From the NCBI GenBank assembly GCA_020354555.1, contig CP070648.1:4266478-4311693 (forward strand): a stretch of 45,216 nucleotides of DNA. The letters run 5' to 3'. The translations under genes and the position numbers were made by a program. This document shows positions 18,074-45,216 of this stretch, in pieces. The notes beneath the pieces were generated by a model. The model ran no database searches and was not told where the DNA came from. It saw nothing but the letters and a program-made list of their open reading frames with translations. The DNA is from Armatimonadota bacterium (GTDB taxonomy: Bacteria; Armatimonadota; Hebobacteria; GCA-020354555; CP070648). The stretch's first letter is position 1. Each line of letters starts with the position of its first letter.

Positions 18074-18090
18074 GCGCGATCGGATCGCGC
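18074..18090. repeat. Perfect inverted repeat between metV and metF
   Basis: GCGCGATC-G-GATCGCGC, an 8-bp-arm palindrome shortly after the metV stop. It has no T-run, so it is more likely an RNA processing or stability element, or chance in GC-rich DNA, than a terminator. Confidence 0.35.
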
Positions 18091-18185
18091 GCCGCCCGCG
18101 CGCTGCGCCCCGGCTCGGGCTGGGCGGCGGCGCGGCGACCGCGCGGCAGCGAGGCGAAATCCCGCCGCTAGGAGGCGAGCGTCAA

Positions 18186-19052: not shown

Positions 19053-19074
19053 CGCGCGATCGGGCATGTCGTAA

Positions 19075-19092
19075 GGCGCTCCGAGGAGCGCC
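19075..19092. repeat. Hairpin between metF and acsB
   Basis: GGCGCTCC-GA-GGAGCGCC, 8-bp arms with a two-base centre in the 80-bp gap before acsB. There is no T-run, so read-through into acsB is expected; it could stabilise one side of a processed transcript. Confidence 0.4.
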
Positions 19093-19132
19093 GGTCCTGG
19101 CCCAGAAGCGTATTAGAGAGAGGGAGTGACGA

Positions 19133-29737: not shown

Positions 29738-29809
29738 TGTCACGGAGAGCTTTTTTCCGCGTACGAGAGGTTTACAGAGCATGGCGGCGTATGATAAGAT
29801 TAACGTCGG

Positions 29810-29839
29810 TTGTGAAATTATTCACAAGCATGCTATAAT
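29810..29839 (+). promoter_or_regulatory. Promoter with overlapping Rex operator, molybdoenzyme/hydrogenase operon
   Basis: The palindrome TTGTGAAATTATTCACAA (29810-29827) has perfect 7-bp arms and fits the published Rex consensus TTGTGAA-N4-TTCACAA completely. It also fits the CRP-type TGTGA-N6-TCACA. A perfect TATAAT follows at 29834-29839. The operator's own TTGTGA serves as -35 with an 18-nt spacer. A repressor bound here would cover the -35 and spacer. Predicted start is near 29846, 68 nt before the ATG at 29914. Rex is released by NADH, so this operon would be induced when NADH accumulates. No rex gene is in the window. Confidence 0.65.
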
Positions 29840-29913: not shown

Positions 29914-31911
29914 ATGGCTAACGTCTTGACCGCGTGCCCGTTCTGCGGGTCGGGATGCAACTTGTATCTCAAGGTGGAGGATGGTCAGCTCACCGGCGTC
30001 CTCCCGAGTTCTTCTCACCCGACAAGCCGCGGAAAGCTGTGCATCCGCGGGTGGCATGCCCACGAGTTCGTCTCCCATCCCGAGCGCCTGCGCTCGCCCA
30101 TGGTTAGGAAGGGCGGCAAGTTCGAGCGCGTCTCGTGGGAGGAGGCGCTTTCGCTCGTCGCCGGCCGGCTGGGGCGGGGGGCGGACGTCGGCGTGGTGGG
30201 TTCGGCTCGCTGCGCCAACGAAGATAACTTCCTGCTGATGAAGCTCGCCCGATGTGTCTTGGGCACCGACAACGTGGATTTCTCGAGTCGCCCCCAGCGC
30301 ATCGCGGATCTGGCGGCGCTAAGCTCTACGCTGGGAGTCAACTGCGCCACCAATCCCGCGCCTGAACTCGCCGGCGCGGATGTCATCGTCCTCGTCGGCG
30401 CCGACCTCGTGCCCGAGATCACGATGATCGCGTCGCTCGTCTACGAGGCCGTCGCACGTGGCGCGAAGCTGGTCGTCATCTCTCCCGTACGCACCGAGCT
30501 TGCCGAACTCGCCGAGGTGTCACTCCAGCCGCGGCTGGGCACCGAGCCGGTGCTGCTGTGCGGATTGCTCAAATCGGTCGTGGATCAGGGGCTCATTGAC
30601 TCCTCGCTTCTCGACCGCGACTGGGACGCGTACGATCAGTTCGCCACCGACCTCTCGCAGTTCACGCTCGACAGCGTCGAGCAGCGCACCGGCGTCGCGG
30701 CGGACGCGATCACTCGCGCCGGGCGGCTCTACGGCGAGGCACGCAGGAGCGCGGTGCTCTACTCGTCGGGGCTCGCGCAGCACCCCGCCGCAGCCGCGAT
30801 GGCGACGGCACTCGCTGACCTCGTCGCCCTCACCAACCACCTCGGGCAGCCCTCGATGGGGCTCTACCCCCTGGCGCGGCAGAACAACTTTCAGGGCGCC
30901 CTCGATATGGGGCTCGCCCCGGGGATGCTGAGTGGTGGGCAGAGCCTGGGCAGCGCTGAGGTCCGCCAGAGATTCGAGCAGGCGTGGGGGTGCCGGCTGC
31001 CGGAGCCGGCGTGCAAGTCGCTCCCGGACATGCTCGGCGGCGTGAAGAGCCTGTACGTCATGGGCGCGGACATCGTGGGCGGTGCGGCGGATCCCGCGCA
31101 GGCGCGCCGCGACATCGAGGCGCTCGATCTCCTGGTCGTGCAGGAGCTGTTCATGACGCCGACCGCGGAACTCGCCGATGTCGTTCTGCCGGCTGCTGCG
31201 TACGCCGAGAAGGACGGCACCGCCACCTGCGCTGATCGGCGCGTCCAGCGACTGCGCAAGGCGGTTGATCCGCCCGGCGAGGCGCGCGCCGACTGGCAAA
31301 TCATCCAGGAGTTGGCCGGGCGGCTGGGCGCATCGTGGCGCTACGACTCTGCGGGCGCGATCTGGGCGGAAATCGCGTCGCTCACGCCCTCCTATGCCGA
31401 TATCACATACGACAAACTGGACGCCGGGTGGGGCGCATACTGGTCGAGCGCGAACGGCGCGGGGGAGCGGCTCCAGCTCAAAGGGCTGTCACTGCAGCCC
31501 GTGGAGTGCCCGCCGCCGCCGGTGACCGATGCGGAGCATCCGTTCCTGCTCGCCCTCGACCCGGCGGCCGAGCGATGGACGACGGACGCGACAACTCTCC
31601 ACTCCGATAACCTGCGCCGTGAGTATCAGATTGCGGCGGCGGATTTCCCTGCGGGGCACGTCGAGATGCACCCGGACGACGCCCAGGAACTCCAGTTGCG
31701 GCAGGGCTTCCGGGTCAAGCTGGCGTCGGCGCACGGCGAAGCCGAGCTTCAGCTCAAGCTCAGCTCCGACGTGTTGCCGCGCACGCTGGTCGTGCCGTAC
31801 CATCTTCGCGACACGGTACGCGATCTCTTCGGCGGCCCGGCGCCAGGCCAGGTCGAAGGCCACCTGGTGTACTCGCCCGTGGCAGTAAGCGTCGCCGCCG
31901 CCCAGCGGTAA
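29914..31911 (+). CDS. Formate dehydrogenase-like molybdopterin oxidoreductase lacking the Sec/Cys ligand
   Basis: A 665-residue protein of the formate dehydrogenase/NuoG superfamily. The N-terminal [4Fe-4S] site is CPFCGSGC plus KLCIRG (Cys8, Cys11, Cys15, Cys43). The MGD-binding domains resemble FdhF, e.g. SARCANEDNFLLMKLAR, GLYPLARQNNFQGALDMG, ELFMTPTAELADVVLPAAAYAEKDGT and a C-terminal molydopterin-dinucleotide-binding fold. Where FdhF has the metal-binding Sec followed by His (ARVUHGPS), this protein reads SRPQRIAD, with Gln128 and Arg129. No nearby Cys can replace the ligand, so ordinary formate oxidation is doubtful. An electron-transfer subunit as in NuoG, or another substrate, is possible. 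It heads an operon with HydB- and HydG-like subunits. AAGGG lies 8 nt before the ATG. Confidence 0.85.
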   Translation: MANVLTACPFCGSGCNLYLKVEDGQLTGVLPSSSHPTSRGKLCIRGWHAHEFVSHPERLRSPMVRKGGKFERVSWEEALSLVAGRLGRGADVGVVGSARCANEDNFLLMKLARCVLGTDNVDFSSRPQRIADLAALSSTLGVNCATNPAPELAGADVIVLVGADLVPEITMIASLVYEAVARGAKLVVISPVRTELAELAEVSLQPRLGTEPVLLCGLLKSVVDQGLIDSSLLDRDWDAYDQFATDLSQFTLDSVEQRTGVAADAITRAGRLYGEARRSAVLYSSGLAQHPAAAAMATALADLVALTNHLGQPSMGLYPLARQNNFQGALDMGLAPGMLSGGQSLGSAEVRQRFEQAWGCRLPEPACKSLPDMLGGVKSLYVMGADIVGGAADPAQARRDIEALDLLVVQELFMTPTAELADVVLPAAAYAEKDGTATCADRRVQRLRKAVDPPGEARADWQIIQELAGRLGASWRYDSAGAIWAEIASLTPSYADITYDKLDAGWGAYWSSANGAGERLQLKGLSLQPVECPPPPVTDAEHPFLLALDPAAERWTTDATTLHSDNLRREYQIAAADFPAGHVEMHPDDAQELQLRQGFRVKLASAHGEAELQLKLSSDVLPRTLVVPYHLRDTVRDLFGGPAPGQVEGHLVYSPVAVSVAAAQR

Positions 31912-31922
31912 GAGGTGAGACG

Positions 31923-32981
31923 ATGAGCCGAGCGCTGAAACTGCAGAAGAGCCGCTGGCCGGAATGGGTGGCGGCGCTCCAAAGGACCGCGGCGGTCATC
32001 GCTCCGGTCCGCCTGCACGGCGAAGACGTCGCCTTCGAGCGCATCACGTCGCCGAGCGAGATTACCCTCGACTTCGACAACACCGCCGATCCGCCCAAGC
32101 GGTTCCTGTTCCCCCAGGTCGAGCCGCTGCTCCGTTATCGGCGTAACGGCGGCTACGCGGTGGAGCCGGTCTACGATGAAGAGCCGCGGGTGTTCTTCGC
32201 CATTCGCTGTTGCGACGTCAGCGCCGTACGTTTCTTCGACTTCACTCTCGGCGCGCAGGACTTGCCCGACAGCTACTACACGGCCCGGCGCGCCGGCACC
32301 GCACTCATCGCCCTCGCCTGCCACGAGCCGTGCCAGTCCTGCTTCTGCGTGTGCGCAGATACCGGTCCTTTCTTGCCCCCGGGGGGCGGCTACGACATCC
32401 AACTGACCGATCTCGGCGGCGAACACTACCTGGCCGAAGTGGACACGGACAAGGGCGAGGCGCTGGTCGCCGCCGCCGCCGAGCTGTTCGCGCCGGCCTC
32501 GGACGACGACCTCGCGCAGCGCCGGGCGCTCGAGGAGGCGTCGGAGAAACGGTTCCCGTCCGAGCCGCGCCTCTACTTCGCGGCGTCCAGCCGCAAGGTT
32601 TCGCTCGATACGGCGGAAGCGGAGCTGTGGCAGCGCATGGCGCGGTGGTGCGTTGCCTGCGGCGGCTGCACCCACATCTGCCCGACCTGTTACTGCTTCA
32701 ACGTGACGGATGCCCAGCGCAACGGCGATGGCCTGCGCAGCCGGCGCTGGGACTCCTGCCAGTACGCCGGCCTCACTCGTGAGGCGTCGGGCCATAACCC
32801 GCGACCGGAGCAGTCGGATCGCGTCAAGCGGCGCGTGTTCCACAAGATCAGCTATCAGTATGTCGCGCGCGACGGCATGCAGGGCTGCGTCGGCTGCGGC
32901 CGCTGCACCCGCATCTGCCCCGGCCTGCGCCTCGGTCTCCCGGAGGTCGGCGAGGCCATCAGGAGAGCGGAATGGAAGTGA
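31923..32981 (+). CDS. HydB/AsrA-like 4Fe-4S dicluster electron-transfer subunit
   Basis: A 352-residue iron-sulfur protein of the family that includes sulfhydrogenase beta subunits (HydB) and anaerobic sulfite reductase subunit A. An N-terminal domain of about 220 residues contains FFAIRCCDVSAVRFFD and ACHEPCQSCFCVC. Two ferredoxin-type sites follow: CVACGGCTHICPTCYCF and CVGCGRCTRICPG near the C-terminus. It would pass electrons between the HydG-like flavoprotein and the molybdopterin subunit. It begins 11 bp after that gene and its stop overlaps the next start. Comparable FdhA-HydB-HydG sets are known in some Thermococcales. Confidence 0.85.
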   Translation: MSRALKLQKSRWPEWVAALQRTAAVIAPVRLHGEDVAFERITSPSEITLDFDNTADPPKRFLFPQVEPLLRYRRNGGYAVEPVYDEEPRVFFAIRCCDVSAVRFFDFTLGAQDLPDSYYTARRAGTALIALACHEPCQSCFCVCADTGPFLPPGGGYDIQLTDLGGEHYLAEVDTDKGEALVAAAAELFAPASDDDLAQRRALEEASEKRFPSEPRLYFAASSRKVSLDTAEAELWQRMARWCVACGGCTHICPTCYCFNVTDAQRNGDGLRSRRWDSCQYAGLTREASGHNPRPEQSDRVKRRVFHKISYQYVARDGMQGCVGCGRCTRICPGLRLGLPEVGEAIRRAEWK

Positions 32982-33811
32982 TGGAGAAGAGGCCCAACAT
33001 CTACCTCCCTGAGATCGCGCGCATCGTCGAAGTGCGCGACGAGACGCCCGACACCAAAACCTTCGTCTTTCGCTTCCGCGACGACCAGTTCCACGACTCG
33101 TTCGCCTGGCGTCCGGGGCAGTTCGTCGAGCTGTCCGTGTTCGGGCTCGGTGAAGCTCCGTTCGGATTCGCCTCGTCGCCGACGCGCAAGGAAAGCTTCG
33201 ACATCACCATCCGCGCGGTCGGCGCGCTCACCCGCGCGCTGCACGCCATGGGCACCGGCGACGAGGTCGGCATTCGCGGCCCGCTCGGCAATCATTTCCC
33301 GTTCGATGACGTGCAGGGCCGAAATATCCTCTTCATCGGCGGCGGCATCGGCCTGCCGCCGCTGCGTTCGCTCATCCACAACATGCTCGACGAGCGCGAC
33401 AAGTTCGGGGAAATCACGATTCTCTACGGCGCGCGCACCCCGACCGACCTCGTCTACAAAGAGGAACTCAAGGAGTGGGAGCAGCGCTCCGACGTCAAGT
33501 TCATCGTCACCGTTGACCGCTCCGAGCCGGGCTGGGAAGGCAACGTCGGCCTCGTGCCCATGCTGTTTTCCAAGGCGGACATCAAGCCGGACGGCACGAC
33601 CGCCTACATCTGCGGCCCGCCCGTGATGATCCGCTTCGTCATCCAGGACCTGGTGAGCATGGGGTTCGCGGAGGAGAACATCATCTCCACACTCGAGCGA
33701 CACATGAAGTGCGGCGTGGGGAAGTGCAATCACTGCTGCATCGGTCACAAGTACGTGTGCCGGGACGGCCCGGTGTTCAGCTACAAGCAGATGAAGGGGC
33801 TGCTGGAATAG
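32972..33811 (+). CDS. HydG/AsrB-like FAD/NAD(P)-binding oxidoreductase subunit
   Basis: A 279-residue flavoprotein of the ferredoxin reductase/PyrK-AsrB-HydG type. The FAD domain has FAWRPGQFVELSVFG and FGFASSPTR. The nucleotide domain has ILFIGGGIGLPPLRSLIHNM, ILYGARTPTDLVYKEEL and TAYICGPPVMIRFV. A C-terminal [2Fe-2S] site, CGVGKCNHCCIGHKYVC, completes the family pattern. It would oxidise or reduce NAD(P)H and exchange electrons with the HydB-like protein. AGGAGA is 6 nt from the ATG at 32972, which overlaps the upstream stop; ATG at 32981 is less well placed. NADH versus NADPH preference cannot be decided here. Confidence 0.9.
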   Translation: MEVMEKRPNIYLPEIARIVEVRDETPDTKTFVFRFRDDQFHDSFAWRPGQFVELSVFGLGEAPFGFASSPTRKESFDITIRAVGALTRALHAMGTGDEVGIRGPLGNHFPFDDVQGRNILFIGGGIGLPPLRSLIHNMLDERDKFGEITILYGARTPTDLVYKEELKEWEQRSDVKFIVTVDRSEPGWEGNVGLVPMLFSKADIKPDGTTAYICGPPVMIRFVIQDLVSMGFAEENIISTLERHMKCGVGKCNHCCIGHKYVCRDGPVFSYKQMKGLLE

Positions 33812-33844
33812 CCTCGGCCTGATCCGGGGCGGTCGGATCTTCCA

Positions 33845-34372
33845 TTGGAGAGAGATGACGGAGCAGCCGGAATAGGGTCCGGCCTGATTCAGGATTTGCG
33901 GCGGGCAGTGCGCGGAGAAGCGCTCGTGGTCGGAGTCGGCAATCCTGACCGCGGCGATGACGGCGTCGGGCCGGCCGTAGTGGAGGAGTTGTGCGCCGCG
34001 GACGTCGAGACGCTCGACGTGGGGGACGCCCCGGAACGCTACCTGGGGCCGATGACGGAATCCGGCGCGCGGGTGTTGGTGTTCGTGGACGCGGTGGACT
34101 TCGGCCGCACGGCGGGGGAGGCGGTGCTGCTGGAGGAGGCCGACTTGCCGCAGCGGAGTTGCGTCACGCACCGCTCTTCGCTGGCGTTGGTGATGCGCTA
34201 CGCGCGTGAGCAGGCGCACCAGCGATCGGTGTTGATCGGAGTGCAGCCGGGCTCGATGGAGTTCGGACAGGGGCTCACACCGGCGGTGCAAGCGGCGGTC
34301 AAGGCGGTCGCCGCCGCTCTCAGCGAAGCGCTGGGTGGGCGGAGCCGCCGCCCGCAGCAAGAGTCCGGCTGA
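33845..34372 (+). CDS. [NiFe] hydrogenase maturation protease (HycI-like), 5' end uncertain
   Basis: A protein of about 160-175 residues with the family core LVVGVGNPDRGDDGVGPAVVEEL, LDVGDAPERY, VFVDAVDFG, THRSSLALVMRYA and VLIGVQPGSMEFGQG. It should trim the C-terminus of a hydrogenase large subunit, most likely the group 4 enzyme at 39849. The 5' end is odd: the only well-placed start (GGAGAG then ATG at 33855) is in another frame and hits a stop after six codons. The correct frame offers only TTG at 33845 without a good ribosome site. A frameshift between about 33870 and 33890, natural or an assembly error, is possible. Confidence 0.8.
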   Translation: MERDDGAAGIGSGLIQDLRRAVRGEALVVGVGNPDRGDDGVGPAVVEELCAADVETLDVGDAPERYLGPMTESGARVLVFVDAVDFGRTAGEAVLLEEADLPQRSCVTHRSSLALVMRYAREQAHQRSVLIGVQPGSMEFGQGLTPAVQAAVKAVAAALSEALGGRSRRPQQESG

Positions 34373-34437
34373 CGCGGCCAAGCCCGCCTGGGGGCGGTAC
34401 GTTCGCCTCAGGCGAGCAAGCGTGCAGAGGTGAGAGG

Positions 34438-35922
34438 ATGCTAGCAATCCTAATCCTGTTGATTCTGCTGCCTGTGTTGAGCGCGGTCGTTATCCTCGCG
34501 CTGCGCCCGACGGCGGTGCGCGTCATCGCCGCCGCCACTGCCGCGGTCACCCTCGGGTTGGCCGTTTGGGCCGTGACTCAAGCGTTCCCGGGGACCGTCA
34601 GCTACGTCTTCGGGCAGATGCCGTGGCTGAAGGAGTTGGAGCCGGTCGGCCTCTTCGGCGTCCTGCTCGATCCTCTCGCGAGCCTCGCACTCATCGTCAT
34701 CATCGGCGTCGGCTTTCTCGCCGCGCTGTTCTCGACCGCCTACGTCAGTGACCGCAACCGCGAGCACGCGCTCGGCGAAGGCCAGCAGCGCTATTACTTC
34801 TGGCTGCTCCTGCTCATCGCCAGCATGGTCGGCGTCGCGCTCTCGCCGAACCTGCTGCAGCTCTTCATCTTCTGGGAACTCAGCACCCTCTGCTCCTGGG
34901 TGCTGATCGCGCACACCCAGGAGGAAAAGACGATGCGGGCGGGCTTCAAGGCCCTCATCGTGACGCACATCGGCGGCCTGTTCTACCTGGTAGCGCCGTT
35001 CATCCTGTTCATCGCCACCAGGTCGTTCGGGTTCACCGCTGCCGCCAAGCTCGCGCCCGGGCTGAAGAACCTGGTGTTCCTCTTCCTGCTCATCGCGGCA
35101 TGGGCGAAGGCAGCTCAGATCCCGTTCCACACCTGGCTCCCGGACGCTCACGCCGAGGCGCCGAGCCCGATCAGCGCCATGCTCTCCGGGGTCATCGTCA
35201 AGGTCGCGGTGTACGCCCTCGCGCGCATCGTCACCGCCTTCTACGTCTCGGGAACCGGCGTCGGCGTCGCCGCCGTCGGCCTGGTTGCGGCCATCATGGC
35301 GCTGGTGACCATGTTCATGGCACTTATCCTCTACTTCGCCCAGGACGACCTCAAGCGGCTGCTCGCCTACTCCACGATCGCCCACCTCAGCTTGATACTG
35401 CTGGGCATCGGCATGGGGATCCTCGGCTCCGGCCTGGCCTTTCGCGGGTCAGTTCTGCACATGATCACTCACGCGTTCGCCAAGACCACCCTTTTCCTGT
35501 GTGCAGGAGCCGTGGTGTACACGACCGGCACGCGCTCGATCAGCCAGATCAGCGGCCTGGGGCGCAAACTTCCGCTCGTCGGCGTGGCGTTCGTGATCGG
35601 CGTGCTGGCATTGACCGGGGTGCCGCCTCTGGGGTGCTTCTGGAGCAAGTTCTACCTGCTCGCGGGTACGCTCCAGGTCGCCGGAGGGCTGGGTCCCGTG
35701 ACTCTCGCCCTCGTGCTGCTGGAGAGCTTGGTTTCCTTCGCCTGGATGCTGAGGGTGACGCAGAAGGTCTTCCTCGGGGAACCCTCGGAGCCCGTGTTGG
35801 CGATTCAGGGCACCCCGCTGCCCGCGGCGATGACCGTAGTGCTGTCGGTGCTCATCGCCATGTGCGTTCTAGCGCCTGCCGTCGGGATCCCGCTGGTGGC
35901 GCGTATCCCGTATCTGCCCTAG
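34438..35922 (+). CDS. NuoL/MrpD/HyfB-like antiporter subunit, tandem copy 1
   Basis: A 494-residue polytopic membrane protein of the proton-translocating antiporter family shared by complex I, Mrp and group 4 hydrogenases. Pump residues are present: Glu147 in FIFWELSTLCSW, Lys in LIAAWAKAAQIPFHTWLPD and Lys in SGVIVKVAVYALAR. A later Lys is in CFWSKFYLL. About 13-14 hydrophobic spans are visible. The segment HAEAPSPISAMLSGVIVKV is of the NuoM/HyfB type. It is strongly similar along its whole length to the next gene (36117), including the ribosome site GAGGTGAGAGGATG, so the two arose by tandem duplication. It follows the maturation protease after 65 bp. Confidence 0.9.
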   Translation: MLAILILLILLPVLSAVVILALRPTAVRVIAAATAAVTLGLAVWAVTQAFPGTVSYVFGQMPWLKELEPVGLFGVLLDPLASLALIVIIGVGFLAALFSTAYVSDRNREHALGEGQQRYYFWLLLLIASMVGVALSPNLLQLFIFWELSTLCSWVLIAHTQEEKTMRAGFKALIVTHIGGLFYLVAPFILFIATRSFGFTAAAKLAPGLKNLVFLFLLIAAWAKAAQIPFHTWLPDAHAEAPSPISAMLSGVIVKVAVYALARIVTAFYVSGTGVGVAAVGLVAAIMALVTMFMALILYFAQDDLKRLLAYSTIAHLSLILLGIGMGILGSGLAFRGSVLHMITHAFAKTTLFLCAGAVVYTTGTRSISQISGLGRKLPLVGVAFVIGVLALTGVPPLGCFWSKFYLLAGTLQVAGGLGPVTLALVLLESLVSFAWMLRVTQKVFLGEPSEPVLAIQGTPLPAAMTVVLSVLIAMCVLAPAVGIPLVARIPYLP

Positions 35923-36116
35923 GCGTCGGCGCTTCAGCGAGCGCCCGAGCGCGGAGGCAGTAAAGAGGTTGATGCTATTGGCTGTAGTTTTGTCGGAAGG
36001 GTCAGTGATCGGCGTCAGCACGGCCTTGGGGGCTGCCCCGGTCATGTCAGAGCGGCGCAGCCGGTTGCCGCTGGCGGAAGCCAGCGCGAGGCGCGCACGC
36101 GTACAGAGGTAAGAGG

Positions 36117-37586
36117 ATGCTCTCAATCCTTGTTCTGCTGATTCTGCTGCCGATACTCGGTGCCGCGGCCGTGGCCGGGCTGCGTCCGCGCGGCGTGCGC
36201 GCGGTTTCGACGGTCGCGGCGCTGGTCACTCTCGGCCTCGCCCTCTGGGCGGTCATCCGTGCCTATCCTGGGACGTTCGAGTCCGTCTTCGGACAGATGC
36301 CCTGGCTCAAGAGCCTCGAGCAGGTGGCCCTCTTCGGCGTCCTCATTGATCCGCTAAGCAGCCTCATGCTCGTCGTCATCACCGGCGTCGGCTTTCTGGT
36401 GGTGCTGTACTCGACCGCCTACCTGAGCGACCGCAACCGGGAGCACGACCTCAGCGAGGGCCAGGGCCGCTACTACTTCTGGCTCCTGCTCTTCATCGGC
36501 GCCATGGTCGGCGTCGCGCTGTCGCCCAACCTGTTGCAGTTGTTCATCTTCTGGGAGCTGACGACGCTGTGCTCGTGGGCCCTGATCTCCCACACCCACG
36601 AAGAGAAATCCCTGCGCGCGGGCTTCAAGGCCCTCATCGTGACGCACATCGGCGGCATCTTTTTTCTCGTCGCTCTGTTCGTTCTCTTCATCGTTACCAA
36701 GTCGTTCAGTTTCACGGCGCTCGCGGATCTCTCCCCGGGGCTGAGGAACCTGATGTTTGTATTCCTGCTCATCGCAGCGTGGGCCAAGGCGGCGCAGATA
36801 CCGTTCCACACCTGGCTCCCCGACGCGATGGAAGCGCCGACACCGATCAGCGCTTACCTCCACGCCGCGGCGATGGTCAAGGCTGGCGTCTACCTCATCG
36901 CGCGCGTCGTGTCGGCGAGTTGGTGCATACCGCCCGGGCTGGGTTTGCTGACCGCGATCCTGGCGCTGGTGACGATGTTCATGGCGCTCGCGCTCTACTT
37001 CGCGCAGGATGATCTGAAGCGGCTGCTCGCCTATTCGACGATCGCGCACCTCGGCTACGTCCTGTTGGGCATCGGCATGGGCATGCTCGGCTCGGAGCTG
37101 GCCTTCCGCGGCGGGGTCCTGCACATCATCAACCACGGGTTTGCGAAGAGCACGCTGTTCCTCGCCGCGGGCGCCGTGGCGTACGCCACGGGCACGCGCT
37201 CGATCAGCCGACTCGGCGGCCTGGGGCGCAAGTTGCCGCTGGTCGCCTTGGCCTTTCTCGTCGGCGTGCTGGCGGTGACGGGGGTGCCGCCGCTGGCGTG
37301 CTTCTGGAGCAAGTTCTACCTGCTCGTGGGCGCGTTCCAATTGGGGGGTGGGCTCGGCCCGGCGATCCTGGTGCTGGTGCTGCTTGAGAGTTTGATCTCG
37401 TTCGCCTGGATGCTTAGGGTGGCGCACAAGGTATTCCTCGGGCAACCCACGGAGCCCGTGCTGGCGGTGCCGGAGAATCCGCTGTCGGTGCAGATGACGA
37501 TCGTGTTGGGCGTGTTGCTCATTATGTGCGTGCTGGCGCCGCTCGTGGGCATCCCGCTGGTTGCGCACATTCCGTACATGCCGTAA
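36117..37586 (+). CDS. NuoL/MrpA/HyfB-like antiporter subunit, tandem copy 2
   Basis: A 489-residue paralogue of the previous gene, near-identical in long stretches (e.g. FGVL-DPL-SL, SPNLLQLFIFWEL, ALIVTHIGG, LLAYSTIAHL, GLGRKLPLV, FWSKFYLL). Pump residues Glu in FWELTTLC and Lys in AAWAKAAQIPFHTWLPD are kept. The TM7-TM8 segment differs: here it is MEAPTPISAYLHAAAMVKAGVYLIAR, here quoted by its parts MEAPTPISAYLH and AAMVKAGVYLIAR, which is the MrpA/NuoL subtype. The ribosome site GAGGTAAGAGGATG is duplicated with the gene. A 194-bp spacer without clear signals precedes it. Confidence 0.9.
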   Translation: MLSILVLLILLPILGAAAVAGLRPRGVRAVSTVAALVTLGLALWAVIRAYPGTFESVFGQMPWLKSLEQVALFGVLIDPLSSLMLVVITGVGFLVVLYSTAYLSDRNREHDLSEGQGRYYFWLLLFIGAMVGVALSPNLLQLFIFWELTTLCSWALISHTHEEKSLRAGFKALIVTHIGGIFFLVALFVLFIVTKSFSFTALADLSPGLRNLMFVFLLIAAWAKAAQIPFHTWLPDAMEAPTPISAYLHAAAMVKAGVYLIARVVSASWCIPPGLGLLTAILALVTMFMALALYFAQDDLKRLLAYSTIAHLGYVLLGIGMGMLGSELAFRGGVLHIINHGFAKSTLFLAAGAVAYATGTRSISRLGGLGRKLPLVALAFLVGVLAVTGVPPLACFWSKFYLLVGAFQLGGGLGPAILVLVLLESLISFAWMLRVAHKVFLGQPTEPVLAVPENPLSVQMTIVLGVLLIMCVLAPLVGIPLVAHIPYMP

Positions 37587-37588
37587 GC

Positions 37589-37677
37589 AAGGCGGCGCGG
37601 CGCGCCGCTCCGAAACGCGCCGGAGAGCGCGTCAAGGCGGCGCCGAGCGCCGCTCCGGAACGCGGGGTAGGCGCGTC
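37589..37677. repeat. Tandem 45/44-bp direct repeat before the third antiporter gene
   Basis: Two adjacent copies, 37589-37633 and 37634-37677, both beginning AAGGCGGCGC and ending GCGCGTC with CGCCGCTCCG in the middle. They differ at a few positions and by a one-base gap. Each copy contains a short GC hairpin. They fill the gap between antiporter copy 2 and the gene at 37693. Confidence 0.7.
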
Positions 37678-37692
37678 AATGGAGACAGGCTG

Positions 37693-39738
37693 ATGTTATC
37701 GGAGATACTGTCGTCGGAACTGATACTCTACGCCATCGGTATCCTGGCGGGCGGCGCCGTTGTGTCCGCCGCTATGTACCGCAATCGGCGCAGCGCGGGC
37801 TGGGCCGCGTTTCTGTTCGTCGCCCTCGCGACCCTCGTCGTGCTCAGCGTGGCGCTGCCGGTGCTCGTCAGCGGCCAGCCGGCGGAGTACGCGTCGGAGA
37901 TAGCCATCCCGGGGCTCGAAGCGAAGCTCGACCTCTCAGTTGACACGTTGAGCGCGCTCTTTCTACTCATGATCGTCATCGTATCCGCGGTGGCGACCTT
38001 CTACTCGATCGGCTACATGGATTCGTATCCGCAGGAGAACGTGGCGCGATACTACGGCCCCCTGCTCCTCTTCATCGGCGGCATGATCGGCGTGGTTTCC
38101 GTGTCCGACTGGTTCTTCTTCCTCGTGTTCTGGGAGTTCATGACGCTCGCCAGCTATTTCCTGGTGATCTTCGAACACGACAACCCGGTGAGTCTGCGCG
38201 CCGGCTTCAAGTACTTCCTGATCACCCATGTCGCCACCGGCCTCATGTTCGCCGCCGCCATCATCACGTGGCAGTCGGGCGCCGTGCGCGGGTTCGATTT
38301 CGCGACCTCCCAGCAGTCGCTGGCGACGGTGGCTGAGGCGCGGCCGTGGCTGCTCCACCTGGTGCTCGGATTGTGGTTCGTCGGCTTCGGCACCAAGGCG
38401 GGCATGTACCCGTTCGGCGACTGGCTGCCCGATGCCCACCCGGCCGCCCCCTCCAGCGTGAGCGCCATGCTCTCGGGCGTGATGATCAAGATCGGCGTCT
38501 ACGGCATCGCCCGCGTCTTCCTGTGGACCGCCTTCAGCATGCTCACCCGCGAGGCCGTCATCGCCTGGGGCATCGTGATCGCGACCTTCGGCGTCGCATC
38601 GGCGGTGGTGGGCAGCATCGCGGCGGTGCAGCAGAATGACTGCAAGCGCCTGCTTGCCTTCTCGAGCATCGGCCAGATGGGATACATCCTCATGGCCCTC
38701 GGCATGGGCCTCGCCTTCCTCCGGATCGCGCCGCTGTTCGGGGCGCTCGCGCTGCTTGCCGCTTTCTATCACATGGTCAACGACGCAGCCTTCAAGTCGC
38801 TCCTCTTCTTGAACGCCGGCAGCGTCGTCTATCACACCGGCAGCCGCGACCTCAACCGGATCGGGGGCCTCTCCGGCGTCATGCCCGTCGCCGCGGCGAC
38901 CGCCGTGATCGGCGCGCTCGCCCTCGCCGGGCTGCCGCCGCTCAACGGCTTCGTCAGCAAGTGGATACTCTACCAGACCGCCATCATCGGCGGCCTCAAC
39001 TACGCCGTCTTCGTCGTGCTCGGGTTGATCGCGCTGTTCGTCAGCGTCGTCAGCCTCGCCTACGCGATGAAGTTCGTCGGCGTCGCGTTCATGGGCAAAG
39101 AGTCGCCGACGAAGTCGGCGCACGCGGGGCCGCTGCCGTGGACGATGAATGCGGCGCAGGTCGTGCTGGCGCTGATCTGCGTCGGCCTCGGCCTGGCGCC
39201 GGTGTGGGCGTCGCACGCGATTTACGGCGTCCTTCGCGCGGGCCCCGTGGCGCTGGCGGAGTCGGGGCAGGTCCTGGCCGGCACCGGCGTGACTCTGGCG
39301 CTCGCGCCCGGCGGGCTGGCGACCGCGGCGTGGAACCCGGTGCTGCTCGCGGTGCTGTTCGGCGGGCTCATGGTGGTGGCGTACGGCGTGATGCGCAGCG
39401 CGGGTGCGCCGGTGCGCGAAGTCGGATCCTGGTACTGCGGTGAGGAGCATGCGGACGAACTCGTGCGCTTCCGTGCGCAAGGGCTCTTCGCGCCCTTCAA
39501 CCGCGCGTTCTCCGGCATCTACCCGACCATCCGCGTGCCCCGCGTCAGCTTCCCGCGCATCGTGGAGCGCGTGTTCGATCTCGACGGGTGGCTGTACGGG
39601 CCGCTGATCCGAGGCGGGGGTAAGCTCGCCGAGCGTTTGAGCCGCACTCATATCGGTATCCCGCAGATGTACATGCTGTGGCAGGTGGTCGGGATGATCG
39701 TTGTGCTGGCCCTGCTGTTCCTGCTGCTGCGGGTATAG
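37693..39738 (+). CDS. HyfB-like large antiporter subunit of the group 4 hydrogenase
   Basis: A 681-residue membrane protein, longer than the two preceding copies because of a C-terminal extension of about 180 residues. It matches the HycC/HyfB type: FLVFWEFMTLASYFLVIFEHDN (channel Glu in WEF) is seen in pieces, then FVGFGTKAGMYPFGDWLPDAHPA, SAMLSGVMIKIGVYGIAR, SIGQMGYILMALG and LPPLNGFVSKW. The extension contains EVGSWYCGEE, FRAQGLFAPF and a last transmembrane helix (VVGMIVVLALLFLLL). The ATG at 37693 is taken; the in-frame extension to 37561 is repeat DNA. It links to the catalytic large subunit 110 bp further on. Confidence 0.9.
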   Translation: MLSEILSSELILYAIGILAGGAVVSAAMYRNRRSAGWAAFLFVALATLVVLSVALPVLVSGQPAEYASEIAIPGLEAKLDLSVDTLSALFLLMIVIVSAVATFYSIGYMDSYPQENVARYYGPLLLFIGGMIGVVSVSDWFFFLVFWEFMTLASYFLVIFEHDNPVSLRAGFKYFLITHVATGLMFAAAIITWQSGAVRGFDFATSQQSLATVAEARPWLLHLVLGLWFVGFGTKAGMYPFGDWLPDAHPAAPSSVSAMLSGVMIKIGVYGIARVFLWTAFSMLTREAVIAWGIVIATFGVASAVVGSIAAVQQNDCKRLLAFSSIGQMGYILMALGMGLAFLRIAPLFGALALLAAFYHMVNDAAFKSLLFLNAGSVVYHTGSRDLNRIGGLSGVMPVAAATAVIGALALAGLPPLNGFVSKWILYQTAIIGGLNYAVFVVLGLIALFVSVVSLAYAMKFVGVAFMGKESPTKSAHAGPLPWTMNAAQVVLALICVGLGLAPVWASHAIYGVLRAGPVALAESGQVLAGTGVTLALAPGGLATAAWNPVLLAVLFGGLMVVAYGVMRSAGAPVREVGSWYCGEEHADELVRFRAQGLFAPFNRAFSGIYPTIRVPRVSFPRIVERVFDLDGWLYGPLIRGGGKLAERLSRTHIGIPQMYMLWQVVGMIVVLALLFLLLRV

Positions 39739-39848
39739 TTAATGTAGTTAAGATAATCCCGGCGCGGCCGCTGCGTCGGCGCGCAGGGCGAGGAACGTCT
39801 GCGTGCGGGTAATGAAAGCGGCCGCGGTTGCGGGAGGAAACGGAAGAG

Positions 39849-41561
39849 ATGTACTTCTCCAATAACGGGCTGCTGACACAGATCAAGCAGCGCGCGGGAG
39901 GCGCGTTCGTCGAGGCTTACGAACCGGTCGAGCGCAAGCTGTACGTCAAGCTGCGCAAGGACGCCGTGAGGCCGATGGCGGACTACCTCTTCAATGAGGC
40001 GGGCGCGCGCTTTCTCATCACCTCCGGCACTGACCGCCGCGATGCCCTCGGCACGTTCGAGATCAACCATATCTTCGCGATGGACGAGGAACACGGTTAC
40101 GTGTGCCTGCTCGCCGAGGTGCACCCCGATGACGCGAAGATCGACTCCATCACGCCGGTGGTCCCAGGAGCGGGCTGGTCGGAGCGGGAGTTTCGCGATG
40201 TCATCGGCGTCGACCCCGTGGGGCACCCTGACCCCAGGCGGCTGGTGCTCGCCGACGACTGGCCGGAAGGTGTGCACCCGCTGCGCAAGGACTTGCCGTA
40301 TGACTACAAGCCGCCCGCCGCGCCGGAGGCCAGGATGCAGTTCAAGGAGGCGCCGGAAGGCACGACGGTGCTCCCCATCGGCCCCTTCTTCCCCGTGCTC
40401 GAGGAGCCGGCGCAGCTCCGCTTGTTCGTGGACGGGGAGCGGGTTGTCGGTTGCGACTACCGCGGGTTCTACAACCATCGCGGCATCGAGAAGCTGGGCG
40501 ACACCGTCCTCAACTACAATGAGATCCCGTTCCTCGCCGAGCGCATCTGCGGCATCTGTGGGTTTATCCACTCCAGTTGCTACTGCCAGGCGGTGGAGGA
40601 CGCGGCGGGGATCGAAGCGCCGATTCGCGCCCGCTACATCCGCACCATCATGCTCGAGATGGAGCGCGTCCACTCCCACCTGCTGTGGCTCGGCATCGCC
40701 ACCCACATCATCGGCTTCGACACCCTGCTCATGCAGTCGTGGCGCATTCGCGAGCCCATCATGTGGCTCAGCGAGGAGATCTCGGGCAACCGCAAGACCT
40801 ACGGCATGAACATCATCGGCGGCGTCCGCCGCGACATCCCCGAGGAGGTGCACCCCAAGATCCTCGCGGTCCTCGATAAGATCGAGAAGGAAACGCTCGC
40901 CGTCGCCGACGCGCTGCCCGGCGACTCGACGCTCATGTTGCGGCTGCGCAACGTCGGGCCGCTCACCCACGACCACGCGCGCGCGATGTGCGCGGTGGGG
41001 CCGACGGTGCGCGGCTCGGGCCATCCGCGCGATGTCCGCGTAGATCACCCCTACGCCGCGTATGCGGAGATCGAGCCCAAGGTCTGCTACCACGACGAGG
41101 GCGACGTCCTCGCGCGCACCCTGGTGCGAGTGGAGGAGACCTTCGAGTCCATTCGCCAGATCCGCAAGGGACTCGCCGACATGCCCGATGGACCGATCGT
41201 CACCCCCATCGAGGACGAGATACCGGCAGGGCGCGAGGGCATCAGCATGGTTGAAGCGCCGCGCGGCGAGGCCATCCACTACGTGCTCACCGGCGAGAAT
41301 AACCGCCCCGAGCGGTGGCGTGTGCGTGCGCCGACGTATCCCAACCTGCAGTGCATCCCGGCCATGGTGCAGGGCCAGGAGGTCGCCGACGTCCCCATCA
41401 CCCTGGGCAGCATTGACCCCTGCTTCTCCTGCACCGAGCGGGTCGAGGTGGTTGACGTCAACAACGAGCGGAAGAGAATCTACACCAACGACGAACTCGT
41501 GGCCCTCTCGCGCGAGAAGGCGTGCGCTGAGCGCAGTCGACGGGGCCACCGGAGGGACTAA
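39849..41561 (+). CDS. Group 4 [NiFe] hydrogenase large subunit (HycE/HyfG-like)
   Basis: A 570-residue fusion of a NuoC-like N-terminal domain (about 1-165, with GWSEREFRDVIGVDPVGHPDPRR in part) and a NuoD-like catalytic domain. All four nickel ligands are kept: Cys234 and Cys237 in ERICGICGF, and Cys525 and Cys528 in DPCFSCTER. It is therefore a true hydrogenase subunit rather than NuoCD of complex I. The 42-residue segment after the last Cys resembles the HycE/HyfG tail that is processed by HycI, matching the protease gene at 33845. GGAGGAAA lies upstream, and the ATG at 39849 starts MYFSNNGLLTQIKQRAG. The stop directly abuts the next start. Confidence 0.93.
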   Translation: MYFSNNGLLTQIKQRAGGAFVEAYEPVERKLYVKLRKDAVRPMADYLFNEAGARFLITSGTDRRDALGTFEINHIFAMDEEHGYVCLLAEVHPDDAKIDSITPVVPGAGWSEREFRDVIGVDPVGHPDPRRLVLADDWPEGVHPLRKDLPYDYKPPAAPEARMQFKEAPEGTTVLPIGPFFPVLEEPAQLRLFVDGERVVGCDYRGFYNHRGIEKLGDTVLNYNEIPFLAERICGICGFIHSSCYCQAVEDAAGIEAPIRARYIRTIMLEMERVHSHLLWLGIATHIIGFDTLLMQSWRIREPIMWLSEEISGNRKTYGMNIIGGVRRDIPEEVHPKILAVLDKIEKETLAVADALPGDSTLMLRLRNVGPLTHDHARAMCAVGPTVRGSGHPRDVRVDHPYAAYAEIEPKVCYHDEGDVLARTLVRVEETFESIRQIRKGLADMPDGPIVTPIEDEIPAGREGISMVEAPRGEAIHYVLTGENNRPERWRVRAPTYPNLQCIPAMVQGQEVADVPITLGSIDPCFSCTERVEVVDVNNERKRIYTNDELVALSREKACAERSRRGHRRD

Positions 41562-42485
41562 ATGGCTCACGCGGTACTGGTGGGGATATTCCAGATACTG
41601 CTGGTGCTTCTGCTGTCGCCCCTGCTCGAGGGGGTGATCCGCAAGCTCAAGGCGCGGATCCACTCTCGCCAGGGGCCGCCGATTACCCAGCCCTACCTGG
41701 ACCTCATCAAGTTGCTCGGCAAGGAGGACCTGCGGCCCACGGGCGGCCTCGTCTTCCGCCTCGCGCCCATCGTCACCATGGCCGCGGTGCTCATGATCGC
41801 GCTGCTCATTCCGATGGGGGCCGGCGCGCCGATCGGCCAGTCAGCCGATCTCATCGTGCTGCTCTACGTCATGAGCATTGCCGCGGTCGGTATCATCGCG
41901 GCGGGCTTCGCGTCCGGCAGCCCCTACGCGTCACTCGGCGCGGGGCGCGAGATGATGATGGTGCTGACCACCGAGCCGGTGGTCGCGGTCGCCCTCATCG
42001 TCGCGGCGCTCAAGTCGGGGACGCTGATGCTCGACGGCATGGTCGGCTGGCAGCTCAGTCACCCGTGGCCGCTCACCGACCCCGTGGGACTGTCCATGCT
42101 GGTCGCGGGCGTCACCTTCTTCCTCGCGCTTCAGGCGCAGGTCGGCAAGTTGCCGTTCGACATCGCGGAGGCGGACCAGGAGATCATGGGCGGGCCGTTC
42201 GTCGAGTTGAGCGGCCCGCGGCTGGCGCTCATCAAGTGGTGCTTCCACATGCGCCTGCTGCTGTTCTCGGTGCTGTTGGTGCAGATCTTCGTGCCCTGGC
42301 CGGACCTCGGGCTGGCCGCGCTGAACGTCGTGATGACGCTGGTCAAGGCGTTCGTCGTGGTCGTCCTCGTCGGACTGATAGATGTCGTCAACCCGCGATT
42401 GCGCATTGACCAGTCAATGAGCTACTTCGCGCGGATCATCGTCGTCGCGCTGGTCGCCGTGGCGCTGACGGTGATCAAGGCGTGA
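41562..42485 (+). CDS. HyfC/HycD (NuoH-like) membrane subunit
   Basis: A 307-residue membrane protein of the complex I subunit 1 family, anchoring the hydrogenase catalytic domain. About eight hydrophobic spans are visible. Family landmarks are GVIRKLKARIHSRQGPPITQPYLDL near the N-terminus (quoted in part: RIHSRQGPPITQPY), LLGKEDL, SLGAGREMMMVLTTEP, LPFDIAEADQEIMGGP and a C-terminal RIDQSMSYFA. The loop with the acidic residues (DIAEADQEI) is the quinone/hydrogenase interface in relatives. It starts immediately after the large subunit stop with GGAGGG upstream. Confidence 0.92.
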   Translation: MAHAVLVGIFQILLVLLLSPLLEGVIRKLKARIHSRQGPPITQPYLDLIKLLGKEDLRPTGGLVFRLAPIVTMAAVLMIALLIPMGAGAPIGQSADLIVLLYVMSIAAVGIIAAGFASGSPYASLGAGREMMMVLTTEPVVAVALIVAALKSGTLMLDGMVGWQLSHPWPLTDPVGLSMLVAGVTFFLALQAQVGKLPFDIAEADQEIMGGPFVELSGPRLALIKWCFHMRLLLFSVLLVQIFVPWPDLGLAALNVVMTLVKAFVVVVLVGLIDVVNPRLRIDQSMSYFARIIVVALVAVALTVIKA

Positions 42486-42498
42486 GAGAGGAAGCGAG

Positions 42499-42975
42499 AT
42501 GTTCCTGAGCAAGCTGAAGGAAGCGCTCATTTGCCTCAAGGCGGGCAAGGTGACCCTGCCGTACCCGCTGGTACCTATGGAGGCGCCCGAGGGGTTCCGC
42601 GGGCGGGTGGAGATCGACGTCAACAAGTGCATCGGCTGCGGCGGCTGCGCCGAGGTGTGCCCGACGCGGCTGATCAACATCTTCGACCTGTCGCAGGAGA
42701 CGCGCGTGCTCGAGTTCGAGTTGGAGCGCTGCGTGCACTGCGGGCGCTGCGAGGAAGTCTGCCCGGAGAACGCGATCACGCTCACCCGCGAGTTCGAGAC
42801 CGCGACGGCCGATAACATGCAACTGCGCATGCGCGCCGAGGTCTTCATGGCCACTTGCCAGCGCTGCGGGCGGTGTTACGTCCCGCCGACGGCGCTCGAC
42901 GAGATGCAGGTCACCGGCTTCCGTCCGCCGGCACCTGACGAGGAAGAGACAGCGGCGGCCGGGGCGGCCCAGTGA
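42499..42975 (+). CDS. HyfH/NuoI-like ferredoxin subunit
   Basis: A 158-residue iron-sulfur subunit with two [4Fe-4S] sites: CIGCGGCAEVCP (Cys44, 47, 50, 54) and CVHCGRCEEVCP (Cys78, 81, 84, 88). These carry electrons to the NiFe site. A further three-cysteine group CQRCGRC (Cys120, 123, 126) lies near the C-terminus, as in some HycF/HyfH proteins; it might bind a metal. The tail is Ala/Glu-rich. It begins 13 bp after the HyfC-like gene. The NuoB-like small subunit (HyfI) expected in such a complex is not in the window and may lie beyond the end. Confidence 0.92.
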   Translation: MFLSKLKEALICLKAGKVTLPYPLVPMEAPEGFRGRVEIDVNKCIGCGGCAEVCPTRLINIFDLSQETRVLEFELERCVHCGRCEEVCPENAITLTREFETATADNMQLRMRAEVFMATCQRCGRCYVPPTALDEMQVTGFRPPAPDEEETAAAGAAQ

Positions 42976-43034
42976 CCCCGGCGCGCGTCCGTGGCAGCGC
43001 CAACCATCGAGTGCATCACAGGGAGACTCGCTAG

Positions 43035-43703
43035 ATGTACAACGAAAGTCTGATTGGGACTTTGAGCCTGATAATGATTGCGACTTCGGTCAGCGCGGTG
43101 GAGGCGCGGAACCTGCGCGTCTCGGCGTTCGCGTATGCGGCGCAGGCGCTGCTCATCTGCGGGCTCATCCTGGCGTTCGCGGTGGGCAGCCGCAACGTCG
43201 CGCTCTACGGCTGGGCGGCGGTCGCATTCGGCACCAAGGTGGTGCTCACGCCATGGCTCCTGTTCGCGTACGTCCGCCGCACCACCGACCGCGAAGTGCG
43301 AGCCATCATCGGCTTCGGCCCCTCGGTCATCATCGCGGTGCTCATCTTGGTGAGCTTCTATAAGCTCACCCATACCTACGCCGACTTCATGGCGCCAACC
43401 ACCGCCGCGATGCACGGCGTGTTTCGCACCAATCTCGCCGTCGCGCTGACCGTGTTCGTCATCGGCATCTACGCCATTCTGTCCCGCCGCGACGCGATTA
43501 AGACCGTGGTCGGGCTCTGCCTGCTCGAAAACGCCGTGCACTTGAGCCTGGTGAGCCTGGCGCCCGGGATTCGCGAGACCGCGCTGATCGGTATCGCCAC
43601 CGAGGTCGTGCTCACGGTGTGGCTGCTGCTCTACATCATCTCCGCAATCCACCAGAAGTTCGGCTCGACCGATACGTTTAAGTTGTCGGAGCTGCACTGG
43701 TGA
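43035..43703 (+). CDS. HyfE-like (NuoK-related) membrane subunit
   Basis: A 222-residue membrane protein with about seven hydrophobic spans. It matches the hydrogenase-4 subunit E family, whose C-terminal half is NuoK-like; VVGLCLLENAVHLSLVSLAPG carries the conserved Glu of the proton path. The length is as expected for HyfE. It sits between the ferredoxin subunit and the last antiporter-like gene, the normal Hyf neighbourhood. A GGGAGA ribosome site precedes the ATG at 43035. The following 158-bp gap has a small hairpin GGCCCG-ATAC-CGGGCC (43821-43836) and nothing else I recognise. Confidence 0.88.
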   Translation: MYNESLIGTLSLIMIATSVSAVEARNLRVSAFAYAAQALLICGLILAFAVGSRNVALYGWAAVAFGTKVVLTPWLLFAYVRRTTDREVRAIIGFGPSVIIAVLILVSFYKLTHTYADFMAPTTAAMHGVFRTNLAVALTVFVIGIYAILSRRDAIKTVVGLCLLENAVHLSLVSLAPGIRETALIGIATEVVLTVWLLLYIISAIHQKFGSTDTFKLSELHW

Positions 43704-43861
43704 GTCGCAGTCGGTCGCGAGATCACGGCGCTCTGCGTCCGGATACGGACAACCCAACCGGGGTCCGATTGGTGAGATTGGTCGCTGCAGGACAACGGCG
43801 CGTCACAATGCCGCGCCTGGGGCCCGATACCGGGCCGAGATATCATCCCGGGAGTTGCTAG

Positions 43862-45216
43862 ATGCCCGATCACGTTGTGTCCATACTGCCTGCTCTGGTG
43901 TTTATCGTTCCCGCCCTATTCGGCGTCGCCGCATACTACGCGGGCGCCAAGATCGGCGTCGCAGCGCGCAACGCGGTCGTGCTCGTCGGCGCCTGCGCCA
44001 CCGCCGCGCTCGCGATCGGCATGCTCTACCAGATGTTTGCGTACGAGGCCGTGCTCACGACGTGGGGGGAGGAGTTGCTCGTTGACGGCCTGAGCATGGT
44101 CATGGTGTTGGTCATCAGCGGGGTCGGCCTGTTTGCCGCGGTTTACGCCATTCGCTACATGCGGCATCAGACCGCGATCCACTGGCGCGACATCACCGAG
44201 CAGCGCCTCAACGTCTTCTATCTCTTCCTCATGCTGTTCATCGCCACCATGCTGTGGGGCGTCGTCACCAACAACGTCATCATGCTCTACGTCGCGGTGG
44301 AGGCGACGACCATCGCGTCGGGGCTGCTCGTGGCGTTCTATTGGGATCGCCGCGGGCTCGAGGCGGGCTACAAGTACCTGATGCTGCTCACCACCGGCAT
44401 CACCTTCGCCCTCTTCGGCTGCGTGCTCATATACGCCTCCTCGACGTCCTACCTGGTCGGCTTCGACGCGCTCCTCATCAGCAAGATCAAACTCATCGCT
44501 GGGAAGTTTCCGCACAGCGTCGTCATTGCCATCTCGGCGGGGCTCATCGTCGGCTTCGGCACCAAGGCGGGCATCGCGCCGTTCCACCCCTGGCTCCCCG
44601 ACGCCCACGCCGAGGCGCCGAGCCCGGTCAGCGCGCTCCTCTCCGGCGTCATGATTAAGATGGCGGTGTACGCGCTCGCCCGCACGATCACGATTTTCTT
44701 CCCGGCGTGGCCGGCGCTCAAGGTCTTCCTCGTCGGCCTCGGCGCGTTCACCATGGTGCTCGGCATCGTCATGGCCATCGTGCAGACCGACATCAAACGC
44801 CTCCTCGCCTACAGCTCGGTGAGCCAGATGGGCTACATCGTCATGGCCTTCGGCATCGGCACCTACCTCGGGGTCTATGGCGCCATCTTCCACCTCATCA
44901 ACCACGGCATCTACAAGGCCTTGCTCTTCCTCGGCGCGGGCGCCATCATGTACAGCACCGGTATCCGCAGCCTGCACGACCTGGGTGGCCTCGGGCGCAA
45001 GATGCCGGTGACCTCGGCCTGCTTCTTCGTCGGCACCCTGGCGATCAGCGGGTTCCCGCTCTTCAACGGCTTCATGAGCAAGATCACCATCTTCCTCGCC
45101 GCGGCGCAAGCCCACATGTGGTGGGCCGCCATCATCGCCATCGCTACGGGAGTGCTGACCCTCGTCGTGATGGTGCACGCGGCGTATGCCATCTTCTGGG
45201 GACGGCCCAGGACGAG
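43862..45216 (+). CDS. HyfF/NuoM-like antiporter subunit, truncated by window end
   Basis: The first 451 codons of a membrane antiporter-like subunit are visible from the ATG at 43862 (GGGAG upstream); no stop is reached. It reads MPDHVVSILPALVFIVPALF and has the channel Glu in MLYVAVEATTIASGLLV. GFGTKAGIAPFHPWLPDAHAEAPSPVSALLSGVMIKMAVYALAR is recognisable in its parts GFGTKAGIAPFHPWLPD and SGVMIKMAVYALAR. Later come SVSQMGYIVMAFG, FNGFMSKITIFL and the helix ending in FWGRPRT. It resembles HyfF (hydrogenase-4 subunit F). Counting this gene, four antiporter-like subunits are encoded in the region. Confidence 0.92.
   Translation, partial: MPDHVVSILPALVFIVPALFGVAAYYAGAKIGVAARNAVVLVGACATAALAIGMLYQMFAYEAVLTTWGEELLVDGLSMVMVLVISGVGLFAAVYAIRYMRHQTAIHWRDITEQRLNVFYLFLMLFIATMLWGVVTNNVIMLYVAVEATTIASGLLVAFYWDRRGLEAGYKYLMLLTTGITFALFGCVLIYASSTSYLVGFDALLISKIKLIAGKFPHSVVIAISAGLIVGFGTKAGIAPFHPWLPDAHAEAPSPVSALLSGVMIKMAVYALARTITIFFPAWPALKVFLVGLGAFTMVLGIVMAIVQTDIKRLLAYSSVSQMGYIVMAFGIGTYLGVYGAIFHLINHGIYKALLFLGAGAIMYSTGIRSLHDLGGLGRKMPVTSACFFVGTLAISGFPLFNGFMSKITIFLAAAQAHMWWAAIIAIATGVLTLVVMVHAAYAIFWGRPRT

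Follow-up and report, generated by a model that had tools for sequence, protein, structure and literature searches.

We analyzed a window of 45,216 nucleotides (G000:C1:4266478-4311693) from the single-contig genome of an Armatimonadota bacterium of the class Hebobacteria (genome G000; 4.88 Mb, 66% G+C). From position 29914 to beyond its end, the window carries a run of genes, all on the forward strand, for a formate dehydrogenase-like subunit that has lost its active site (FdhL), for HydB-like and HydG-like subunits, and for a hydrogenase of the Hyf type with its antiporter-like membrane arm. We conclude that this block probably specifies one NAD(P)H-linked, ion-pumping Hyf-type hydrogenase complex in which FdhL would act as a NuoG-like wire or scaffold. 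The argument is carried by a gene order that is conserved across dozens of genomes, far above chance, by the loss of the formate site in FdhL with its Fe-S ligands kept, by intact Ni-Fe ligands in the hydrogenase, and by phylogeny. The original prediction had proposed a complex I-like assembly built from other parts and named FdhA-like, HydB-like, HydG-like, HycI and Hyf genes; all are present in the order it gave, and the conserved block and the dead FdhL bear out the likeness to complex I, of which the exchange with NAD(P)H, the pumping of ions and the assembly into one complex are the putative elements.

Loss of the formate site in FdhL

FdhL (29914..31911), identified by Pfam and NCBIfam matches, site comparison and an AlphaFold2 model, can be aligned with formate dehydrogenases along almost all of its length. 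SRPQR replaces the motif ARL(C/U)H and PLARQNN replaces PLRGQNN, with loss of the Cys/Sec-His-Arg residues, and the 4Fe-4S cysteines C8, C11, C15 and C43 are kept. Its score against TIGR01591 is 491 bits, compared to a cut-off of 666 and to 822 to 861 bits for active relatives, so that neither mark of a formate dehydrogenase alpha subunit, the catalytic residues or a score above the cut-off, is found in the window protein. The same holds across the family: in the 35 readable FdhL sequences (25 module copies, including that of the window, and ten from KSB1/Calditrichota), the Cys/Sec ligand is lost in 35/35 and the four cysteines are kept in 35/35, with the neighboring His retained in five, the Arg in six and all three residues in none. 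Cys/Sec-His and Arg are intact in 16/16 comparison formate dehydrogenases (15 from loci and E. coli FdhF), confirming the earlier impression of an inactivated subunit.

The dead FdhL sequences form one clade within active FdhA, with a support of 99 in the Shimodaira-Hasegawa-like approximate likelihood ratio test, adjoining the FdhA of trios in which FdhA, HydB and HydG occur without a Hyf core in view (L100, L110 and L118). An artifact of the dead site is ruled out as the cause of this grouping, since the tree is unchanged after the sites are masked. Between the window genome and its sister genome of the same family (G001), FdhL shows a dN of 0.21 and a dS of 0.95; the resulting dN/dS of ∼0.22 indicates purifying selection and therefore a maintained protein. 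The AlphaFold2 model (pLDDT 87, pTM 0.90) has formate dehydrogenases as its best fold matches in the PDB, with NuoG far lower. Because it is dead in every readable copy with its 4Fe-4S cysteines retained, FdhL fits a wire or scaffold rather than a formate dehydrogenase. The original prediction of a wire stands to this extent, with a scaffold as the other option.

Could FdhL still carry out molybdenum or tungsten chemistry, on another substrate or with another metal ligand such as the Asp of NarG, so that the complex would be a hydrogenlyase for some other compound with NAD(P)H serving as a second port? FdhL keeps its fold and a large part of the cofactor domain, the six copies mentioned above keep the Arg, and a few copies carry Asp at the ligand position, some of them with the neighboring His (L048, L050, L253, L257 and L259). 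Yet the site varies by lineage (SRPQR, ARVQC, QRIHS, GRTEW, ARLDA, SRLYD, GRSRL, ARLTH, VRYDH and others) with no new conserved pattern, it drifts while the four cysteines stay invariant, and the branches of the dead FdhL are long. We consider retained catalysis unlikely.

Conservation and organization of the block

The order FdhL-HydB-HydG-HycI-HyfD-HyfB-HyfG-HyfC-HyfH-HyfE-HyfF recurs in 11 Armatimonadota relatives and seven more. A search of Armatimonadota with a HydG alignment returned 19 genomes at 418 bits or above, followed by a drop to 384, and module-type HydG adjoins Hyf genes in 19/19 of them; within the class, it was not found in 3/14 genomes (G002, G004 and G006). In KSB1/Calditrichota (the phylum of G292), module-type HydG occurs in 14/82 genomes, and the block is present in 12/12 loci inspected. 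Among the matches listed, the block extends at least to Acidobacteria (L092 and L094), Aminicenantes (L117), Calditrichota (L096), KSB1 (L099 and L112), a deltaproteobacterium (L098) and Zipacnadia or other Armatimonadota (L128 and L139). The synteny anticipated for all modules is thus found, and the contrary pattern, an Fdh-HydB-HydG set regularly encoded apart from the hydrogenase, is not: module-type HydG was not seen apart in any of the 19 genomes or 12 loci. In one relative (L212, genome G223, 5500-16600), a run of NuoD-, H-, I-, K-, L-, M- and N-like genes lies directly 5' of FdhL on the same strand.

Several features are consistent with a single transcription unit. The pairs HydB-HydG, HydG-HycI and HycI-HyfD overlap or abut in relatives, several of which show overlapping stop and start codons across the HydG-HycI-HyfD junction (33811-34438 in the window) that the original prediction had singled out; in the window, the gaps are 65 bases between HycI and the first HyfD gene and 194 bases between two HyfD genes. 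Three of the four promoter-like matches between 29500 and 45216 fall at 29771-29839, including a forward-strand site TTGTGA-18-TATAAT with TG preceding the −10 element (29810..29839, ∼75 bases 5' of FdhL), and none falls between 29840 and 41451. A scan of the window found no terminator-like sites in the intergenic gaps of the block; both scans are weak evidence, a consensus match being no proof.

The NuoB-like small subunit, HyfI, was expected beyond 45216, but downstream of HyfF we find an alpha-galactosidase-like open reading frame, dnaA and dnaN (named by eye from their translations). A genome search placed HyfI at G000:C1:530.5 kb, adjoining hypF, hypC and hypD and ∼1.1 Mb from the block. 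HyfI lies immediately 3' of HyfF in G003, G007, G008, G009 and G010, and in the sister genome HyfB-HyfG-HyfC-HyfH-HyfE-HyfF-HyfI-HypF-HypC-HypD are contiguous, with a HyfI 90% identical to that of the window genome. Because HyfF, HyfI, HypF, HypC and HypD stand in a row in the sister genome, HyfI must have been split off in the window genome by a rearrangement.

Subunits and proposed electron path

The electron input would be formed by HydB and HydG. HydB (31923..32981) is an AsrA-like Fe-S subunit whose closest PDB chain is the beta subunit of Pyrococcus furiosus soluble hydrogenase I (SHI; 9nez_B); it scores ∼175 bits against NF040833/NF040829, below their equivalog cut-offs, and its Fe-S cysteines are invariant in the family alignment. 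HydG (32972..33811) resembles AsrB and PyrK, a putative NAD(P)H-FAD-[2Fe-2S] subunit by its PF00175, PF10418 and PF00970 domains. Its closest PDB chain is SHI gamma (9nez_C, E 5.9e-67), and its [2Fe-2S] cysteines C247, C252, C255 and C263 are invariant in the alignment. Module HydB proteins form one clade (support 95) joined with the HydB of the active FdhA-HydB-HydG trios (97); module branches in the HydG tree are poorly resolved (support 29), which neither confirms nor contradicts this grouping. The proteins fall outside the group 3b sulfhydrogenases, with 175 bits against a cut-off of 750 for HydB and 233 against 650 for HydG, and a family profile search found no HydA- or HydD-type genes in the block. 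We rejected a reading of HydB and HydG as parts of the sulfite reductase AsrABC, given scores of 134 bits against 323 for AsrA and 206 against 289 for AsrB and no AsrC above its cut-off in the window genome. AsrC exceeds its cut-off in 1/14 genomes of the class, the window genome not being that one. In view of this rarity, genes of the HydB/HydG type may account for part of the published inference of sulfite reductase in Hebobacteria (PMC10290634).

On the hydrogenase side, HyfG (39828..41561), a fusion of NuoC- and NuoD-type parts (PF00346, PF00329 and PF00374), retains both Ni-Fe CxxC motifs as RICGIC...H and DPCFSCTER. Its closest PDB chain is E. coli HycE (7z0s_E, 444 bits), followed by P. 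furiosus Mbh (285 bits). It is accompanied by the NuoH-like anchor HyfC (41562..42485; PF00146, 207 bits), the ferredoxin-like HyfH (42499..42975) with two 4Fe-4S motifs of the form CxxCxxCxxxCP (syntenic homologues 49-84% identical), the membrane subunit HyfE (43035..43703; syntenic homologues 38-82% identical) and the antiporter-like HyfF (43862..45216, continuing to ∼45349 past the end of the window; L004:4340-5827; homologues 45-78% identical). HyfB (37693..39738; NF005086, 451 bits), whose start is probable and was picked by homology, is a long antiporter-like subunit, and HycI (33845..34372) is a hydrogenase maturation protease by PF01750 (56.6 bits) and TIGR00072 (109.5 bits, above the cut-off). 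With its Ni-Fe motifs, NuoB-like HyfI, HyfB/C/D/E/F arm and HycI, the enzyme is a group 4 [NiFe] hydrogenase of the Hyf/formate hydrogenlyase (FHL) type. The presence of the Ni-Fe ligands in HyfG sets it apart from Ehr, defined by their absence (PMC6349859), and the loss of the formate site together with the lack of a HycB-like gene in the block sets it apart from a formate hydrogenlyase proper. A true example of the latter type is found in genome G058 (L057), where a related hydrogenase stands with an active FdhA and a HycB-like ferredoxin and without adjoining HydB/HydG. This arrangement suggests that formate and NAD(P)H are alternative inputs to one hydrogenase type, one taking the place of the other. 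In the HyfG tree, G058 falls among the module members and long branches meet, so that the tree does not fix the order of events on the hydrogenase side.

The window has two HyfD genes, HyfD1 (34438..35922; NF005097, 462 bits, above the cut-off) and the family-typical HyfD2 (36117..37586; NF005097, 548 bits), the latter present in nearly all relatives. They are 72% identical to each other, and the HyfD of the sister genome, whose contig ends there, is nearer to HyfD2. The prediction of one more pump than in Hyf thus applies to the window, but relatives with a readable HyfD-HyfB interval have a single HyfD, and the fourth antiporter is a local feature, seen only in the window genome. HyfD1 alone carries a HyfF/NuoM-like segment (WLPDAHAEAPSPISAML-SGVIVKVAVYALAR) where the other readable HyfD proteins are NuoL-like, making it a possible chimera. 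Gene conversion from HyfF was considered and found unconvincing, the same codon being used at 19/25 positions in the segment and at 74/121 elsewhere.

Taken together, the subunits suggest a path in which NAD(P)H would exchange electrons, as input or output, at the FAD and [2Fe-2S] cluster of HydG, from where they would pass to the 4Fe-4S clusters of HydB, perhaps through the cluster of FdhL, and on to HyfH, HyfI and the Ni-Fe site of HyfG; the coupling of this path to the antiporter arm would resemble that in FHL and complex I. FdhL would be a former formate dehydrogenase that persists between HydB and the hydrogenase as an Fe-S wire or scaffold. By textbook potentials (−320 mV for NAD(P)H and −414 mV for H2) the reaction is near equilibrium under natural conditions, and therefore reversibility and few ions per H2 would be expected: running from H2 to NAD(P)+, the complex could conserve energy at high H2, and running from NAD(P)H to H2 it would require low H2 or the ion gradient.

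Several points weigh against such a complex. The NAD(P)H/H2 couple gives little free energy for an arm of three or four antiporters, and HydB and HydG score below the equivalog cut-offs of enzymes with proven NAD(P)H use. The single 4Fe-4S cluster of FdhL may lie outside the electron path, like cluster N7 of NuoG. At locus L097 of an uncultured bacterium (∼9900-21000), HydB-HydG-HycI-Hyf occur without a recognizable FdhL, and HyfI is unlinked from the block in the window genome.

A complex that uses ferredoxin as well, or mainly, would form H2 by confurcation from ferredoxin and NAD(P)H or would bifurcate in the opposite direction. The weakness of NAD(P)H as sole donor for H2 also speaks for this option, and both HydB and HyfH are ferredoxin-like. 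However, the block has a single PyrK-type flavin subunit, a second flavin site, such as bifurcating enzymes typically have, was not found in it, and no additional subunit is conserved there, making this option improbable. The least probable alternative is that the block encodes two enzymes that work apart, with FdhL, HydB and HydG forming a soluble oxidoreductase next to an ordinary Hyf hydrogenase linked to ferredoxin or formate. The trios without adjoining Hyf (L100, L110 and L118) and the two gaps in the window could be cited for it, but those trios have an active formate site, the dead version occurs only together with the hydrogenase, no HycB/HyfA-type gene for a hydrogenase-side input was seen in the block, and in several relatives the genes overlap at the HydG-HycI-HyfD junctions.

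Returning to the proposed NAD(P)H-linked hydrogenase, some of its relatives have an unusual first Ni motif (L1). Both Cys codons of this motif are in-frame TGA in the HyfG-type subunits at L098:12364-12375 and L058:976-987 (minus strand), and the second is TGA at L096:10546, at L112:16739 and in ten related loci (L248-L252 and L255-L259). SelA was found in 4/4 TGA genomes tested and not in the window genome, and a hairpin, which in L058 shows a paired change, lies ∼12 bases 3' of the TGA; an Rfam scan of four loci of this type gave no match at the gathering threshold. These codons suggest selenocysteine at L1 rather than at the usual second motif, L2, where known [NiFeSe] hydrogenases carry it. 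As for the history of the family, the balance tilts slightly toward a second origin of an NAD(P)H input module like that of complex I: an NAD(P)-linked FdhA-HydB-HydG formate dehydrogenase would have joined Hyf, given up formate chemistry a single time and then been passed on intact across several phyla, yielding an ion-coupled NAD(P)H:H+ oxidoreductase, with selenocysteine at L1 in some members.

Upstream of the block lie genes for carbon monoxide dehydrogenase/acetyl-CoA synthase (CODH/ACS) subunits, AcsV, a methyltransferase, a MetF-like protein and CooC-like ATPases, preceded at 14393-16904 by genes for both subunits, small and large, of a hydrogenase of the group 1 NiFe/NiFeSe type. Elsewhere in the genome, a CODH-like gene stands next to a run of complex I genes (G000:C1:3949000-3963000; L233), with NuoE-, NuoF- and NuoG-like genes not evident there.

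Relation to known systems

The block shares with E. coli Hyf (FHL-2) and FHL-1 (FdhF-HycBCDEFG) the HyfG/H/I core, the HyfC anchor, the HyfB/D/E/F arm and HycI, but it lacks the HycB/HyfA ferredoxin, its formate dehydrogenase is dead, HydB and HydG are added, and the window has a second HyfD. In the E. coli enzyme, electrons pass along FdhF-HycB-HycF-HycG-HycE (PMC9474812). With P. furiosus SHI, a group 3b hydrogenase, it has HydB and HydG homologues in common, whereas SHI is soluble, has other large and small subunits and lacks antiporters. By the FdhA and HydB trees, the nearest relatives of the input module are the FdhA-HydB-HydG trios (L100, L110 and L118), putative NAD(P)-linked formate dehydrogenases with active Cys-His-Arg and no hydrogenase core adjoining in the DNA examined. 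Fdh3 of Thermococcus onnurineus was considered as a characterized trio and set aside, its NADP subunit looking of another type (PMC8965080). Complex I likewise places an Fdh-derived dead subunit, NuoG, between an NAD(P)H flavoprotein and a core of NuoB/C/D/H/I type with antiporters; it differs in that the input of the block is HydG instead of NuoEF (a family profile search found no NuoE or NuoF genes in the block), the hydrogenase site is intact, and FdhL folds nearer to true formate dehydrogenases.

The original prediction knew of no described complex of this composition. A similar cluster has in fact been noted in the Saganbacteria genome RX5A (PMC6349859, 2019). Besides cooF, asrA and asrB, it comprises a group 4 hydrogenase, subunits of the Mrp-like type and a molybdopterin oxidoreductase that could not be classified; it was called "enigmatic", its role being left unexplained. 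Judged by the published description of its gene content, this cluster matches the block and is probably of the same kind; its authors proposed an Mbh-like function, and a lost formate site, a role of NAD(P)H and the spread of the cluster were not reported (PMC6349859). For Hebobacteria and Zipacnadia, a group 4b hydrogenase, formate dehydrogenase and Asr have been listed separately (PMC10290634). Our search of the open literature, with subscription papers outside it, found no paper naming the complex, the dead subunit or the NAD(P)H port.

Why NuoG resembles a formate dehydrogenase that has died has long been asked, and the block would be a second case. With formate-active relatives on one side and an active-looking hydrogenase on the other, the steps are directly studiable. 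Annotations of "Asr sulfite reductase" or "formate dehydrogenase" in such genomes call for caution, as they may denote parts of a hydrogenase. If our reading is true, the complex would give anaerobes that carry CODH/ACS genes a new route of NAD(P)H/H2 exchange at the coupling membrane.

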